Source of the DNA: Deltaproteobacteria bacterium
GTDB taxonomy: Bacteria > Bdellovibrionota > JACOXK01
Direction of reading: 5' to 3'
NCBI GenBank assembly: GCA_016186995.1
Contig: JACPKQ010000026.1
Location: forward strand, 1-24,139
DNA: 24,139 nt
The position numbers and the translations under genes were made by a program. Below are positions 15,814-23,648 of the stretch, piece after piece (the first letter of the stretch is position 1; each line of letters begins with the position of its first letter). The notes under the pieces are model-generated. The model saw nothing but the letters and a program-made list of their open reading frames with translations, was not told the DNA's origin and searched no databases.

Positions 15814-17091
15814 CTAAATACGTGCTTCTCTTAACTCACCAAGAATTTTATCAATACTTTCCTGAAGTTTTGTGGAAGGCATGAGAGAACTGTTTAAAAT
15901 GATAGAAAAGGCCAAAACCTGCTTAGAGGTTGTTTTAAGAAAACCTGTTAAACTCATCACCCCATTTAAAGAGCCTGTTTTAGCTCGAAGCGACCCTTCA
16001 AAGGGTGTGTTATCAAACCGCGCAAGAGTTCCGTTTTCTTCTGGAAGAACATAAGAATCTTTTTTAAAATCCATTTTTTGGGTTAAAAAATCATCCATCA
16101 CCTTTAAACCTTTCTCAGTTGAACCAGGAGCTCCCAATTTATAAGCCCCCATAGTTTTTACAATTTGCTCAGCAATAAAATTATTGCTGAAAAGATTTAA
16201 AGCCGACGCAATTTCACGAAGCATTTTAGATTCATAAGTTAAAATGAGCTTTGCTTGTGGAGGAACAATGCCTTTTTGAATGCTTCCCTTTACTTTAATG
16301 TTTCTTTCTTCAAGAAATGTTTTAAAAACAGATCCATAATAATAAAGCGGATTTGCAATATTTTTATAAATTCTTTTTTCTTTTAAGCTTTCTGGAACAA
16401 TACCTTGAATTTTAATAATTTCTTTTTTGTCTTGAGAAAATCGATCAACTGTAAATGTCCCCTTTTTTCCGGTAACAGCCAAATTCTGAACTTCAACATA
16501 GGGAGATGCAGGGTCTACAATAACTTTTGGCTTTCCACCCAACTTTGCAGGCCGAACATAAATAGCAACAACATTAAAATTTAAAGAAAGAGCCCCTAAA
16601 GGCGCACTATAAGCCCTTTCAGAGCCTGTTTGAACCCAACCTTCTGTAAATTTTTGATCATCAAAGTAAGAATCATCTAAAACAAGATTGTGAACTGATT
16701 TAAGATCTTCTCTTGAAAGATCATTGACCAAAAACCACAGTCTTTCAGTCACAAAAAGCGGATCACCATACCCCTTAACATAGAGATTTTTCCCATCATA
16801 AAAAACTTCTGTTTTAAATTTATAATAGGGTCCTAAAACATTAAGAGCAGTAACAGTTGTAATAAGTTTTGTATTAGAAGCAGGAATAAGTGCTACATTT
16901 TCAGAGTGTGAAAAAACAGGTTTTCCACTTTCAACTTCCGATGCCAAAATAGAAGCCTCAATTTTTTTAAAATCTTCGGATTCAAGAATTTTTTCAATAT
17001 TCTTCTTCCATGTAGGTTTTGCACACGCTTCAGAAAGAAAAAGAATTAAACAAAGAAAAACAAGAGGAAATATTTTTTTCAAACTCACCAT
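15814..17091 (-). CDS. dacB: D-alanyl-D-alanine carboxypeptidase/endopeptidase (PBP4, family S13)
   Basis: 425 aa, periplasmic, trims or cleaves peptide crosslinks in murein. Signal peptide: MVSLKK, then hydrophobic residues to about 20, likely cut near EACA-K. Active-site triad: Ser72 in SNTK, SNN at 302-304 and KTG at 371-373. The large inserted domains typical of S13 lie between (about 85-290). Unusually, the block after APGSTEKGLKVMDDFL jumps directly to LPEENGTLARFDN. The usual DGSGLSR segment and the stretch after it (about 35-40 residues in E. coli-type proteins) are absent, which explains the short length. SD AAGGTG lies before the ATG. First gene of the minus-strand operon; only 37 bp separate it from the divergent binding-protein gene. 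Confidence 0.9.
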   Translation of the reverse strand: MVSLKKIFPLVFLCLILFLSEACAKPTWKKNIEKILESEDFKKIEASILASEVESGKPVFSHSENVALIPASNTKLITTVTALNVLGPYYKFKTEVFYDGKNLYVKGYGDPLFVTERLWFLVNDLSREDLKSVHNLVLDDSYFDDQKFTEGWVQTGSERAYSAPLGALSLNFNVVAIYVRPAKLGGKPKVIVDPASPYVEVQNLAVTGKKGTFTVDRFSQDKKEIIKIQGIVPESLKEKRIYKNIANPLYYYGSVFKTFLEERNIKVKGSIQKGIVPPQAKLILTYESKMLREIASALNLFSNNFIAEQIVKTMGAYKLGAPGSTEKGLKVMDDFLTQKMDFKKDSYVLPEENGTLARFDNTPFEGSLRAKTGSLNGVMSLTGFLKTTSKQVLAFSIILNSSLMPSTKLQESIDKILGELREARI

Positions 17092-17128: not shown

Positions 17129-18652
17129 GTGAAACGTCTTTTTATCTTATTATGCCCCATTCTCATTTTGTTTCAAGCATGTACAAGAGGTACTCCTCAA
17201 GATGCACTTGTTATCGCTATTGAGTCGCCAGTTAAAAATTTAGACCCTCGATTTGCAACAGATGCTTACTCTCAAAGGGTCGTTGAACTTATGTATAGCG
17301 GGCTTGTAAGGCTTAATGAAAAGTCTGAAATAGTGGGTGATCTTGCGACCCACTGGGATATGCCAGATGACAAAACCTATGTTTTTCACTTAAGAGAAGG
17401 GGTTACATTTCATGATGGAACGCCTTTAACAGTTGAAGACATTAAATATACCTTTGCTTCACTTGTAGATCCTGAAACAGGGTCGCCCTATAAAACTGCT
17501 TTTGAAAAAATTGAAAGTGTTGAAGCAACGGACTCAAAAACTATTAAACTAACCCTTCATGAAGTGAATGGTGCTTTTCTTATAGATTTAACAGTAGCTC
17601 GCATTATACCCAAACATGCGGATGATCTTAAAACCCAAGCTTTAAACAACCACCCCATTGGAAACGGCCCCTACCAGTTTGTCAAAAAAGATTTGAATAA
17701 AATCACACTTAAAGCCTTTCCAAACCATTTTTGGAAGACTCCAAAACTTGGGCAACTTATTATTAGAACTGTGGCAGATGATACAACCCGTATTGCCCTT
17801 CTTAAGAAAAAAGAAGTTGATCTCATCCAAAACGCTCTTCCTTCTGATGCACTCAAACAGTTTGTGGATAAAGAAGATTTTTTTATTCAAAAGGTTCCCA
17901 GCCTTACTTACAAATATTTAGGCATGAATCTCAATAATAAAATTTTAAAAAATAAAAAAGTACGGGGAGCTCTCGCTTACGCCCTCAATACAAAAGAAAT
18001 TATTCAATATGCATTAGATGGTTTAGCTATCCCTGCAACAAGTATTCTTTCACCCGAAAGCCCTTTCTATGAAGAAAATACCCAAAAATACTTTTACGAT
18101 ATTAAAAAAGCCAAACAACTTTTAGATGAAGCAGGCTATCCAGAGTTATCAGGAAGATCCTATAGATTTTCTCTTACTTTTAAAACATCCACAGCTCCTG
18201 AAGCTTTAAGCATTGCAAAAATTATCGCAAATCAACTTAAAAAATTAAATATTAATGTTGAGGTTGTTTCTAACGAGTGGGGAACTTTTTATTCTGATAT
18301 TAAAAACGGAAATTTTGAACTTTTTTCTCTTCAATGGGTGGGAGTTACAGAACCCGATATTTTTTACAATGTTTTTCACTCTTCCATGATTCCTCCTCAT
18401 GGAGCTAATCGTGGTTATTATAAAAATCACTTTATTGATCAACTCACCGAACAAGGTCGAAAAACGGTTGATCTGAAAAAAAGAAAAGCCATTTACTCTC
18501 AAATCCAAAAAATGATTGCTCAAGATTTACCTTACATCCACCTTTGGCATCAAACATATTTTGCAGTTGCTCAGAAAAATGTTCAAAACCTTATATTGTG
18601 GCCCACAGGAAGCTTTATTCCCCTTGTAGATTGTACAAAAGTTAGAAAATAA
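17129..18652 (+). CDS. ABC transporter substrate-binding lipoprotein, family 5 (peptide/nickel type)
   Basis: 507 aa extracytoplasmic solute-binding protein of the DppA/OppA type. The signal peptide ends at Cys18 (ILFQAC), probably lipidated although the lipobox is not ideal. Family landmarks include NLDPRFATDAYSQRVVELMYSGLV, LREGVTFHDGTPLTVEDIKYTF, NHPIGNGPYQF and the C-terminal QIQKMIAQDLPYIHLWH. The substrate is probably oligopeptides or murein peptides; the sequence alone does not decide. It begins with GTG and almost no SD. No permease or ATPase gene is adjacent. It lies divergent from PBP4 and ends at its own AT-rich terminator. The murein context makes cell-wall peptide uptake a reasonable guess only. 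Confidence 0.9.
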   Translation: MKRLFILLCPILILFQACTRGTPQDALVIAIESPVKNLDPRFATDAYSQRVVELMYSGLVRLNEKSEIVGDLATHWDMPDDKTYVFHLREGVTFHDGTPLTVEDIKYTFASLVDPETGSPYKTAFEKIESVEATDSKTIKLTLHEVNGAFLIDLTVARIIPKHADDLKTQALNNHPIGNGPYQFVKKDLNKITLKAFPNHFWKTPKLGQLIIRTVADDTTRIALLKKKEVDLIQNALPSDALKQFVDKEDFFIQKVPSLTYKYLGMNLNNKILKNKKVRGALAYALNTKEIIQYALDGLAIPATSILSPESPFYEENTQKYFYDIKKAKQLLDEAGYPELSGRSYRFSLTFKTSTAPEALSIAKIIANQLKKLNINVEVVSNEWGTFYSDIKNGNFELFSLQWVGVTEPDIFYNVFHSSMIPPHGANRGYYKNHFIDQLTEQGRKTVDLKKRKAIYSQIQKMIAQDLPYIHLWHQTYFAVAQKNVQNLILWPTGSFIPLVDCTKVRK

Positions 18653-18691: not shown

Positions 18692-18848
18692 GATCATTCT
18701 TTAAGCTATTGAAATTAAAAGTTTTTTGAGGCTTTCAGTGACTTGAGAGGATTCTTTTTTGTATTCGTAATCATAACAACTGACCTAAAGTGGGGGTAAA
18801 CCCCTTGATTTTTCAAGTATTTACGGTATTTATATGGCCCTTGTGCTC

Positions 18849-18864
18849 TGGCACATCCGTTGCA
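18849..18864 (+). promoter_or_regulatory. Sigma-54 (RpoN) promoter upstream of a structured RNA
   Basis: TGGCACATCCGTTGCA matches the consensus TGGCACG-N4-TTGCW at every defined position except A for G at the seventh. GG and GC are exactly 12 bp apart. Predicted +1 is near 18875. It is non-coding and correctly oriented toward the terminator-ended RNA. Such promoters need an AAA+ enhancer-binding protein; none is encoded in this window. Confidence 0.8.
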
Positions 18865-18874
18865 ATCTTAACTC

Positions 18875-18993
18875 TTTGCAGGGCCGAAATGACTTTAAAG
18901 ATTTTTAAAATTTGTGGGATTCGTCCCACATACAAAGGTAGCGAGATTTCTAGCAGTTCGGCCTTCCTGCCAGATTTTTTCGCTACCTTTTTT
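18875..18993 (+). ncRNA. Predicted sigma-54-dependent small RNA or attenuating leader
   Basis: About 119 nt from the predicted start to the end of the U-tract. Structure: a 5' segment with GCAGGGCCGAA (18878-18888), an A/U-rich single-stranded stretch, a perfect hairpin TGTGGGA-TTCG-TCCCACA (18913-18930), then an 11-bp terminator stem, AAAGGTAGCGA (18934-18944) with TCGCTACCTTT (18980-18990), enclosing a small GCAG/CTGC hairpin. GCAGGGCCGAA can instead pair with TTCGGCC..CTGC (18957-18970), which competes with the terminator. No GEMM c-di-GMP aptamer core or other riboswitch that I know is visible. Either a free sRNA or a 5' attenuator of the next operon. Confidence 0.6.
18934..18993 (+). terminator. 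Rho-independent terminator of the predicted RNA
   Basis: Perfect 11-bp stem AAAGGTAGCGA / TCGCTACCTTT with a 35-nt loop holding an inner GCAG/CTGC hairpin, ending in a run of six T residues. It finishes 11 bp before the response-regulator ATG, so transcripts reaching that gene from upstream must read through. Confidence 0.75.
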
Positions 18994-19004
18994 ATTTTAT
19001 AACA

Positions 19005-20063
19005 ATGGTTAATAGTAAACACGCAATTCTTATCGTCGATGATGAAAAAGAAAATCTCTTAGCTCTTAAGAGGACACTTCATTCATTAGCCGAAATTCAT
19101 CTTGCTCAAAGTGGGCGAGAAGCACTTTCTATACTTAAAGATCATCCTATTTCAATCATCATTACTGATCAAAGAATGCCAGAAATGTCTGGTGTTCAAC
19201 TTCTTAAAAAAGTTTATAAAAGTTTTCCGGATGTCATGCGCATTATTCTTACTGGTTATACAGATATTGAAGATTTAATTGAAGCTATTAACACAGCTCA
19301 TATTTATCGATATCTCACAAAACCCTGGAACAACGAAGAACTTATATTCATTGTTAAACAAGCCATGGAAAGATACGAACTTAAAACAGAAAATATTTAT
19401 CTTACAGAAAATCTTCAAAAACAAAATGAGAAGTTACAAGAAAAAGAACAAGAACTTAAAAAAATAAATAAATTTTTGGAAAAAAAGATCGAAGAAAGAA
19501 CACATGATCTTAAAAGACTCAATAATAAATTGAGCCAACTTGCTATTACAGATGAACTTACAGGCATTGGGAACCATCGTTTTTTTCAAACAAGTTTTGA
19601 ACGTGAAATAAACCGTGCAAAACGCTATGGAAGAGATCTTTCACTGCTTATCATCGACGTCGATCATTTTAAAATTTATAATGATCAAAACGGACATCCT
19701 AAAGGTGATAAAGTATTAAAAACCATAGCTCAGATTTTGAGCAAAAATGTTCGGGAAGAAGATATTGTCACTCGCTATGGTGGTGAAGAATTTGCTATTA
19801 TTACCCCAGAAACCAATGAAATAAAAGCAGGCGAGCTTGCTGAAAGAATCAGAAAAGCAGTTGAACAATATCAGTTTCCACATGCCCATGTTTTACCAGA
19901 AGGGACGCTTACTATTAGTATTGGAGTGGCCACCTTTCCTAAAGATGGAAAAACAATGAAAAGCCTCTTTAATAAAGCAGACAAAGCTTTGTATGTTTCT
20001 AAAAAACAAGGTCGAAACCAGATTTCTCTCTGGGAAATTCCTAAGAAAAAAGCTAAAAAATAA
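19005..20063 (+). CDS. Response regulator with GGDEF output (diguanylate cyclase)
   Basis: 352 aa, cytoplasmic, makes c-di-GMP from two GTP. The receiver domain (1-120) has acidic pocket Asp12/Asp13, phospho-acceptor Asp55 (IITDQRMP), Thr83 and Lys106 in LTKPW. A coiled coil (about 127-178) acts as a dimer stalk. The GGDEF domain (about 180-345) starts with DELTGIGNHRFF and has an intact GGEEF (259-263). RxxD (250-253) lies exactly five residues before it, an inhibitory I-site. The cyclase should thus be active and product-inhibited. No histidine kinase is adjacent. There is no SD before the ATG, which lies just beyond a terminator. The stop overlaps the rsmE start (TAATG). Confidence 0.93.
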   Translation: MVNSKHAILIVDDEKENLLALKRTLHSLAEIHLAQSGREALSILKDHPISIIITDQRMPEMSGVQLLKKVYKSFPDVMRIILTGYTDIEDLIEAINTAHIYRYLTKPWNNEELIFIVKQAMERYELKTENIYLTENLQKQNEKLQEKEQELKKINKFLEKKIEERTHDLKRLNNKLSQLAITDELTGIGNHRFFQTSFEREINRAKRYGRDLSLLIIDVDHFKIYNDQNGHPKGDKVLKTIAQILSKNVREEDIVTRYGGEEFAIITPETNEIKAGELAERIRKAVEQYQFPHAHVLPEGTLTISIGVATFPKDGKTMKSLFNKADKALYVSKKQGRNQISLWEIPKKKAKK

Positions 20064-20809
20064 TGACACGTCTTTTTGTTGATGATCCACAGCTTAAAAT
20101 TAATAACATTATTGTACTTAAAAATGAGAAGTACAATAAGATTAAAAATGTTTTAAGACTTAAAAAAGATCACAACCTTATTTTATTTAATAATTCTCAC
20201 AAAGAGTTTATTGGAAAAATCGTTCAATGCTCTTCCAGAGAAACCCACATCCTTATTATTGAGGAAATTTCTAAAAATACAGAAAAGAAAATAACTATTT
20301 CTATTGCAGGGGCTCTTACCAAAGGCAAAAAAATTGAATGGGTTTTTCAAAAGGGAACTGAGCTTAATGTTTCTGAATTTTATCCACTTATTTCAAAAAG
20401 AAGCCTTGTTAAAGATGTTTCCCAAAACAAAGTTGAAAGATGGAGAAGAATTCTTGAAGAAGCGGGAAGCCAATGCGGAAGGGTTGATGTACCCAAACTT
20501 TATGACCCACTTTTGATAGAAGAATACTTTCAACACATGAAAAACATTCAAGCTAATAAAATTATTTTAGTAGAACCTAACCACAAGCAAGAAAGTTCAT
20601 GTCATTTTTCAGGAAAAGAATTTCATTTATTGACGGGTCCTGAAGGTGGATTTACTCAAGAAGAGCTCATTTTAGCCAAAGAGGCAGGGTTTCAATCTTT
20701 AACCCTAGGGGGGCTGACGTTACGGGCAGAGACAACCCCTATTGTTGTAACCGCCATTCTTCAAAACCGCTTCGGTAATCTTACAATCACAAACATTGAC
20801 CAGAAATAA
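20063..20809 (+). CDS. rsmE: 16S rRNA m3U1498 methyltransferase
   Basis: 248 aa. SAM-dependent SPOUT-class enzyme that methylates N3 of U1498 in 16S rRNA. The N-terminal PUA-like domain (about 1-70) is followed by the SPOUT domain with KGTELNVSEFYPLISKRS, EEAGSQCGRVDVPKL, the SAM-knot glycine loop LTGPEGGFTQEE and LGGLTLRAETTPIVV. Normal length. Its ATG shares one base with the stop of the diguanylate cyclase gene, so it is translationally coupled and co-transcribed. Confidence 0.93.
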   Translation: MTRLFVDDPQLKINNIIVLKNEKYNKIKNVLRLKKDHNLILFNNSHKEFIGKIVQCSSRETHILIIEEISKNTEKKITISIAGALTKGKKIEWVFQKGTELNVSEFYPLISKRSLVKDVSQNKVERWRRILEEAGSQCGRVDVPKLYDPLLIEEYFQHMKNIQANKIILVEPNHKQESSCHFSGKEFHLLTGPEGGFTQEELILAKEAGFQSLTLGGLTLRAETTPIVVTAILQNRFGNLTITNIDQK

Positions 20810-23288: not shown

Positions 23289-23304
23289 TGGCACGATAAT
23301 TGCT
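23289..23304 (+). promoter_or_regulatory. Perfect-consensus sigma-54 promoter of the small lipoprotein gene
   Basis: TGGCACGATAATTGCT matches TGGCACG-N4-TTGCW at all defined positions. Predicted +1 is near 23315, leaving a leader of about 19 nt that contains the SD AGGAGGT before GTG at 23334. Upstream is very AT-rich, with TTAACAT at 23192 and 23210 and TGTTAA at 23254, which could be activator or IHF sites. Confidence 0.88.
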
Positions 23305-23333: not shown

Positions 23334-23648
23334 GTGAAACAAATCTTTTTATTGAGTTTCATTGTTTTATGTTTAGGGTGTGGCCGAGGCACCATTGTTT
23401 TTGAAGAAACACAAGTTAAGTCTGAAGAATATCCTTCAGGAGAATCTGAAGAATATCCTTCAGAAGAAATAGAAACTACTGCACCCGTAGTCACTGACAA
23501 TAATTGTGTCACTGATATTGTGAATCTTCCTTGTGGAATTTACTGCATCCAAATTGGTGAAAGAGTTATTTGGTTTGAAATTAAAAGCGAAGATTTTGGG
23601 CCTCAGTTCTATCCAGGTGGAGATCCAAGACTCGAACCTCGATTTTAG
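23334..23648 (+). CDS. Small lipoprotein of unknown function
   Basis: 104 aa. Starts with GTG after a strong AGGAGG. The signal peptide MKQIFLLSFIVLCLGC ends in a lipobox-like LCLGC, so Cys16 is probably acylated. The mature protein has an acidic, low-complexity part (about 22-48) containing a tandem SEEYPSGE/SEEYPSEE duplication. It is followed by a compact C-terminal part with three cysteines (NCVTDIVNLPCGIYC), a hydrophobic strand IQIGERVIWFEI and a Pro/Gly-rich end. I do not recognise a family. Expression is predicted to depend on sigma-54 and an activator not encoded here. An outer-membrane or periplasmic-facing role is inferred from the lipoprotein signal only. Confidence 0.75.
   Translation: MKQIFLLSFIVLCLGCGRGTIVFEETQVKSEEYPSGESEEYPSEEIETTAPVVTDNNCVTDIVNLPCGIYCIQIGERVIWFEIKSEDFGPQFYPGGDPRLEPRF
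23421..23468 (+). repeat. 24-bp tandem duplication inside the lipoprotein gene
   Basis: Two head-to-tail copies (23421-23444 and 23445-23468) differ at a single base (G/A). Each encodes SEEYPS(G/E)E, and each contains the palindrome CTGAAG-AATATC-CTTCAG. The reading frame is kept (8 codons), so it may expand or contract without a frameshift. Confidence 0.8.

Follow-up and report, generated by a model that had tools for sequence, protein, structure and literature searches.

The window analyzed here is a stretch of 24,139 nucleotides from a 1.68-Mb, 93% complete genome (G000). Its features are collected in Table 1. A gene for a REC-GGDEF response regulator, i.e., a diguanylate cyclase with an intact GGEEF motif and an RxxD inhibitory I-site, is preceded by a sigma-54-type promoter element and a structured RNA, and followed by genes for an RsmE-type methyltransferase and an RDD protein. 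The ATG of the cyclase gene starts 11 nt after the end of the U-run of the RNA, and no Shine-Dalgarno sequence is visible upstream of it. On the other side, a gene for a solute-binding protein (SBP_bac_5) is inserted between the RNA and a divergent gene for a PBP4-type carboxypeptidase. In the homologous loci of families f4 and f24 that were scanned with Pfam, the Peptidase_S13 gene is the immediate divergent upstream neighbor, and RsmE lies downstream in those scanned loci that reach far enough.

Table 1. Features of the locus and of the dispersed repeat (positions refer to the window unless a locus is named)
Feature	Position	Strand	Basis
PBP4-type D-Ala-D-Ala carboxypeptidase (Peptidase_S13), divergent neighbor	15814..17091	-	Pfam
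SBP_bac_5 gene, between the Peptidase_S13 gene and the RNA	17129-18652		
Sigma-54 (RpoN) -24/-12 element TGGCACATCCGTTGCA	18849..18864	+	exact TGGCAC-N5-TTGCW match
Predicted +1, 12 nt past the C of the -12 GC	18875	+	inferred from the geometry of sigma-54 promoters
GCAGGGCCGAA, a complement of the conserved loop and of the 3' side of the loop's stem that might form a competing pairing	18878..18888	+	
Perfect 7-bp hairpin with UUCG tetraloop	18913..18930	+	sequence and fold
Long hairpin, homologue of the f4/f24 hairpin	18934..18990	+	covariance model R1 match
Apical motif CAG-NN-CGGCCUUC-CUG, conserved; CAG and CUG close a 10-nt loop	18954..18969	+	
U6 run of the intrinsic terminator	18988..18993	+	sequence
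REC-GGDEF response regulator / diguanylate cyclase	19005..20063	+	Pfam Response_reg 3.7e-22, GGDEF 5.9e-53
RsmE-type 16S rRNA methyltransferase, downstream neighbor	20063..20809	+	Pfam Methyltrans_RNA
Dispersed repeat	about 8-175; L317, L319, L322, L324, L330-L333, L337, L338, L340-L342		

The promoter element TGGCACATCCGTTGCA differs from TGGCACG-N4-TTGCW at a single base, the seventh; the -24 TGGCA, the -12 TTGC and the fixed TGG-N8-TTGC spacing are all present. A genome-wide scan of G000 returned 25 exact TGGCAC-N5-TTGCW sites, versus none for the reversed pattern used as a control, and the genome encodes rpoN (PF04552, 1.4e-66). The site is therefore well above chance and the promoter call is sound, in agreement with an earlier note on this DNA, which had described a sigma-54 promoter one base off the consensus.

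A putative terminator-ended RNA begins at the predicted +1, 3' of this site. It has a ~50-nt 5' extension that is particular to G000; the UUCG hairpin sits in this extension, and the f4/f24 homologues are without it. The long hairpin that follows consists of an 11-bp terminator stem (18934-18944 paired with 18980-18990), an internal loop and an apical stem. Seven of the eight nucleotides past the folded stem are U. Both the stable stem and the U-tract of an intrinsic terminator are found in G000. Positions 18876-19000 fold at -36.8 kcal/mol (z = -3.5), and none of 200 shuffled sequences folded as well. The UUCG hairpin, the 11-bp terminator stem and the six U residues reported in the earlier note are thus borne out by sequence and fold. 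Its statement that no ORF lies inside the RNA is also fair, since the two overlapping mechanical ORFs that span it (18790-19002 on the plus strand and 18813-19022 on the minus strand) matched no Pfam family.

To find homologues of this RNA, we compared the upstream regions of orthologous REC-GGDEF genes and then carried out a motif search. Direct DNA comparison with 59 relatives yielded only chance matches outside G000; the homology is visible only by reading upstream of the orthologous genes. A common motif, CAGNNCGGCCTTCCTG, was first seen in two genomes of another family. When the whole set of 368 genomes available for the phylum was searched, it turned up at 12 places, and the reversed-pattern control gave two matches. 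At nine of the 12 places, a TGG-N8-TTGC site is followed by a long hairpin whose apex carries the motif. The nine hairpin copies lie in eight genomes, namely G000, G313 (two copies), G055, G047, G314, G315, G037 and G031, and the seven genomes other than G000 belong to families f4 and f24. In every homologue found, then, the sigma-54 site is located 5' of the RNA, and a REC-GGDEF orthologue follows the hairpin in all copies except the second one in G313, where the contig ends. The remaining three places, elsewhere in the genomes, have neither a sigma-54 site nor a long hairpin and look like chance occurrences.

The copies share a common fold: a lower stem (about 11-13 bp) leads through an asymmetric internal loop to a middle stem, above which a CAG/CUG helix closes the 10-nt NNCGGCCUUC loop. 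Across the nine aligned copies from eight genomes, 14 of the 16 apical positions are invariant. Covariation was assessed in an alignment of seven non-window sequences: both partners vary in 12 of the 23 pairs, 85% of the cells pair, the covariation score was reached by none of 500 shuffles, and slid registers scored far below the correct one. The loop remained constant as both stems diverged, also between different classes of the phylum, and this pins down a specific putative recognition site. If that site is real, its partner could be fished for directly. We also considered an antisense reading, in which the structure would be the leader of the divergent PBP4 gene, and rejected it on account of the G-U pairs and the better folding of the plus strand in 7 of the 8 homologues.

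The earlier note had suggested a covariance search with homologues from relatives. The model that we used (R1) was built without the window sequence, and homologues were found in seven other genomes. R1 matches 18929-18996 with 27.5 bits, corresponding to E = 1.9e-5 for the window and 1.3e-3 for the whole genome. Elsewhere it recovered only the already known genomes, a match to the motif alone in G041 and an echo on the reverse strand in G315. As a specificity control, and for that use only, we took viral contigs, in which the motif has at least 120 matches that we regard as chance; on 80 of these contigs, preselected for the motif, R1 scored mostly 15-18 bits, with one score of 25.2. Since 27.5 bits is modest next to 25.2 in an unrelated locus, the membership of G000 rests mainly on the loop, the promoter and the gene linkage taken jointly. 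The G000 copy differs from those in f4/f24, both in the 50-nt extension and in having a different stem.

The modest score, close to the best among the 80 preselected unrelated loci, would suit a chance combination of features in G000, namely a sigma-54 promoter of the cyclase gene and an unrelated terminator that stops read-through coming from the SBP gene upstream. Against this, the 14 fixed bases recur in other families at the same place relative to gene and promoter, and simple counting gives a probability of about 1e-6 for such a chance occurrence within a ~150-nt leader. We therefore regard a chance combination as very improbable. Judged from sequence comparison, the element in the window is a conserved, covarying RNA that is absent from Rfam and linked both to a sigma-54 promoter and to a single diguanylate cyclase gene.

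The distribution of the element among relatives follows the same gene. In the motif search of the 368 genomes of the phylum and in the covariance-model search, the hairpin was not seen apart from a REC-GGDEF gene. G051, a 95% complete genome, has neither the REC-GGDEF orthologue nor the hairpin. G316 has a degenerate sigma-54-like site (TAGTAT...TTGCAT) with the ATG almost directly after it and no hairpin in between. The hairpin is also missing from the six genomes of g8, a genus of family f4, in which the -12 region reads GTGC, TCGC or similar, a TATACT/TATAAT-like box is present, and the ATG is close by. In a REC-GGDEF tree, the f4/f24 clade has full support and leaves out the G000 gene, which branches outside it; g8 lies inside the hairpin-bearing clade, with support of 100/100 for g8 itself and 97/90 for the node joining it to G037 and G031. 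This nested position points to loss of the hairpin together with the sigma-54 promoter. Upstream of the orthologous genes of family f2, from the window's own class, neither a sigma-54 site nor the hairpin was found, a point that counts against the leader reading given below. The pattern in G051, G316 and g8, together with the tree, is that of an optional leader of the REC-GGDEF gene.

These data bear on the proposal of the earlier note that the element is a sigma-54-dependent sRNA gene in an otherwise unannotated gap. The promoter and the structured, terminator-ended RNA stand. The RNA is not isolated, though: it ends just short of the REC-GGDEF start codon, and its apical loop is conserved in other families. 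A free-standing sRNA would be placed beside the cyclase gene by happenstance, and its pyrimidine-rich loop (CGGCCUUCCUG) would serve as a seed pairing with purine-rich sites near the start codons of other mRNAs. The clean terminator with U6 in G000, the U-rich tail in G313, the exposed loop that is invariant on variable stems and the missing Shine-Dalgarno sequence before position 19005 would all suit such an RNA. Nevertheless, we consider it unlikely, and less likely than a cis-acting leader, for the following reasons. In the genomes searched, the element lies directly 5' of a REC-GGDEF orthologue and nowhere else, and is missing where the gene is missing, as in G051. In G316, hardly any sequence separates the sigma-54-like site from the start codon, and there is no hairpin between them. 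Most f4 homologues have no good U-tract and are not obvious terminators. In G000, the short distance from the U-run to the ATG leaves no room for another promoter. Lastly, the loop complement GAAGGCCG yields no recognizable target set in G000. Its 26 sites in that genome comprise the loop's own reverse complement, 13 sites in one transposon-like repeat and 12 others, and the search for trans targets revealed no pattern among these 12. The excess of sites is accordingly due to the repeat.

Our preferred reading, which we hold to be probable, is that 18849-18993 comprises a sigma-54 promoter and a cis-acting 5' leader of the REC-GGDEF gene, with the leader serving as an attenuator in G000. Built on the promoter, the hairpin with its covariation and invariant loop, and the linkage to the gene, this model predicts a transcription start, attenuation, binding of the loop and control of the cyclic-di-GMP output. 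Sigma-54 RNA polymerase, driven by an enhancer-binding protein, would start near 18875 and transcribe a leader whose core is the long hairpin with the invariant 10-nt apical loop. In G000, the hairpin would act as an intrinsic terminator by virtue of its stem and U6 run, so that transcription would stop ahead of the ATG as long as nothing disturbs the formation of the hairpin. The partner that decides this, be it a protein or an RNA, is likely to recognize the loop. Because the terminator lies 11 nt before the ATG, with no room for a further promoter, the G000 leader is best read as an attenuator.

The mechanism in the relatives is probably different. The spacing between the sigma-54 site and the hairpin is constant in f4/f24, which places the predicted +1 at the base of the hairpin; the start codon, where it can be placed, lies about 90 to 150 nt further downstream. 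The U-tracts are strong in G000, fair in G313, which has a U-rich tail, and poor or broken in most f4 copies. Since most f4 copies lack a terminator-grade U-tract, intrinsic termination, and with it attenuation, cannot be the shared mechanism. In the f4 relatives, a hairpin that starts at +1, mostly with no U-tract, more likely acts on translation or on mRNA stability.

The 5' extension of G000 contains a possible switch. The segment GCAGGGCCGAA, found in this genome and not in the other RNA-bearing ones, can pair with the conserved loop. In folds of prefixes representing the growing transcript, this pairing is dominant from about 18963 to 18983, and the terminator afterwards. The duplex between GCAGGGCCGAA and the loop has an energy of -14.7 kcal/mol, reached by 21 of 2000 shuffles, and that with the whole apical hairpin -18.7 kcal/mol, reached by 61 of 2000. 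The predicted strength of this pairing is unusual, not extreme, and only suggestive of a switch.

It is also conceivable that both modes of action are combined, in that the terminated leader regulates the cyclase gene in cis while its short product acts in trans. Such a dual role would fit the terminator-bearing copies in G000 and G313 as well as the invariance of the loop, yet no target set was found and the trans activity is superfluous for explaining the data, and we regard this combination as quite improbable. Returning to the cis-acting leader, a broader proposal seems to us possible, if somewhat doubtful: that the element represents a regulatory RNA of a new class, in which a leader hairpin coupled to sigma-54 tunes the synthesis of the diguanylate cyclase and a dedicated partner (protein, RNA or ligand) reads the hairpin's invariant CGGCCUUC loop, the terminated leader possibly being trans-acting as well.

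No known family accounts for the element. A scan of the window against Rfam identified only a tRNA elsewhere and gave no match for the RNA. For the seven homologous loci, no Rfam family scored above its gathering threshold, the cyclic-di-GMP riboswitches included; at a loose threshold, the best weak match was to Termite-leu, with 22.9 bits versus a threshold of 51. We found no description of the hairpin element in the open-access literature, and the word 'undescribed' in the earlier note thus holds.

Among known systems, Qrr and GlmY are sigma-54-dependent sRNAs in which the promoter lies directly upstream of a short terminator-ended RNA. The RNA in the window is also short, terminator-ended and directly 3' of a sigma-54 promoter; however, it is fixed 5' of one gene, most likely as its leader, and has no sequence or Rfam relation to either. 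In Klebsiella, the nasF operon likewise has a sigma-54 (Ntr) promoter. Like the nasF leader, the window element is probably a 5' leader, with an intrinsic terminator and a conserved hairpin loop. In ANTAR-type antitermination (NasR, EutV, AmiR), such loops are read by the regulator (PMC3369931, PMC7496416), and the targets consist of two tandem hairpins with hexanucleotide loops that have A at position 1 and G at position 4 (PMC3369931). The window element, in contrast, has a single conserved hairpin, whose NNCGGCCUUC loop is 10 nt long, and no tandem hexaloops, and we rejected its assignment as an ANTAR target. A search for ANTAR proteins gave no match in 17 genomes, including the RNA-bearing ones, nor any in the control genomes. 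The cyclic-di-GMP riboswitches and the merRNA of Bdellovibrio are likewise RNAs tied to cyclic-di-GMP signaling, the latter probably from the same phylum (PMC3627812). The window element differs from them in being a single hairpin, as opposed to a multi-helix aptamer, and in matching no Rfam riboswitch; in addition, merRNA has no conserved gene downstream (PMC3627812), whereas the window element precedes a synthesis gene. Under the leader model, two layers of control over cyclic-di-GMP synthesis would meet at a single gene: sigma-54 and an activator would act on initiation, and the RNA loop would act after it.

Several further observations were made along the way. In G000, the exact sigma-54 sites are mostly found a short distance 5' of an ORF on the same strand, often one for a lipoprotein or secreted protein, as judged from the translated starts; one site precedes fliA. 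The sigma-54 regulon of this genome thus looks to be dominated by surface proteins. A second exact site in the window (23289-23304) lies upstream of ORF 23334-23648, a short ORF with a GTG start, a good Shine-Dalgarno sequence and no Pfam match that encodes a putative lipoprotein. Another exact site, at 19792-19807 on the plus strand of contig C26 (L042), is followed by a putative RNA of about 155 nt (about L042:1527-1680) that ends in a very long hairpin and UUUCUUUUU. This RNA folds at -62 kcal/mol (z = -7.0), has no Rfam match, and is flanked on both sides by genes solely on the opposite strand. As a stand-alone sigma-54-dependent sRNA, it is a stronger candidate than the element at 18849-18993.

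The GAAGGCCG-bearing dispersed repeat has terminal inverted repeats, ACATAAAGTTACCTAGTAT, and a short form of ~170 bp. At least 13 copies or copy ends are present in G000, some with extra inserted sequence, and it looks like a miniature inverted-repeat transposable element.

In the g8 loci L133, L134, L137, L184, L185 and L187, TTGGTA or a similar sequence, followed by TATAAT or TATACT, lies over the bases that correspond to the sigma-54 site, and the REC-GGDEF start codon is very near the predicted transcription start. This arrangement may represent a natural swap of promoter class, from sigma-54 to sigma-70-like. In the f2 loci L128, L129 and L130, a different conserved stretch, about TTTGACTCTTTCAYAYGAATTGCTTACTCTA, is located just 5' of the REC-GGDEF start codon; further upstream, these loci share a long inverted repeat that is rich in GC.
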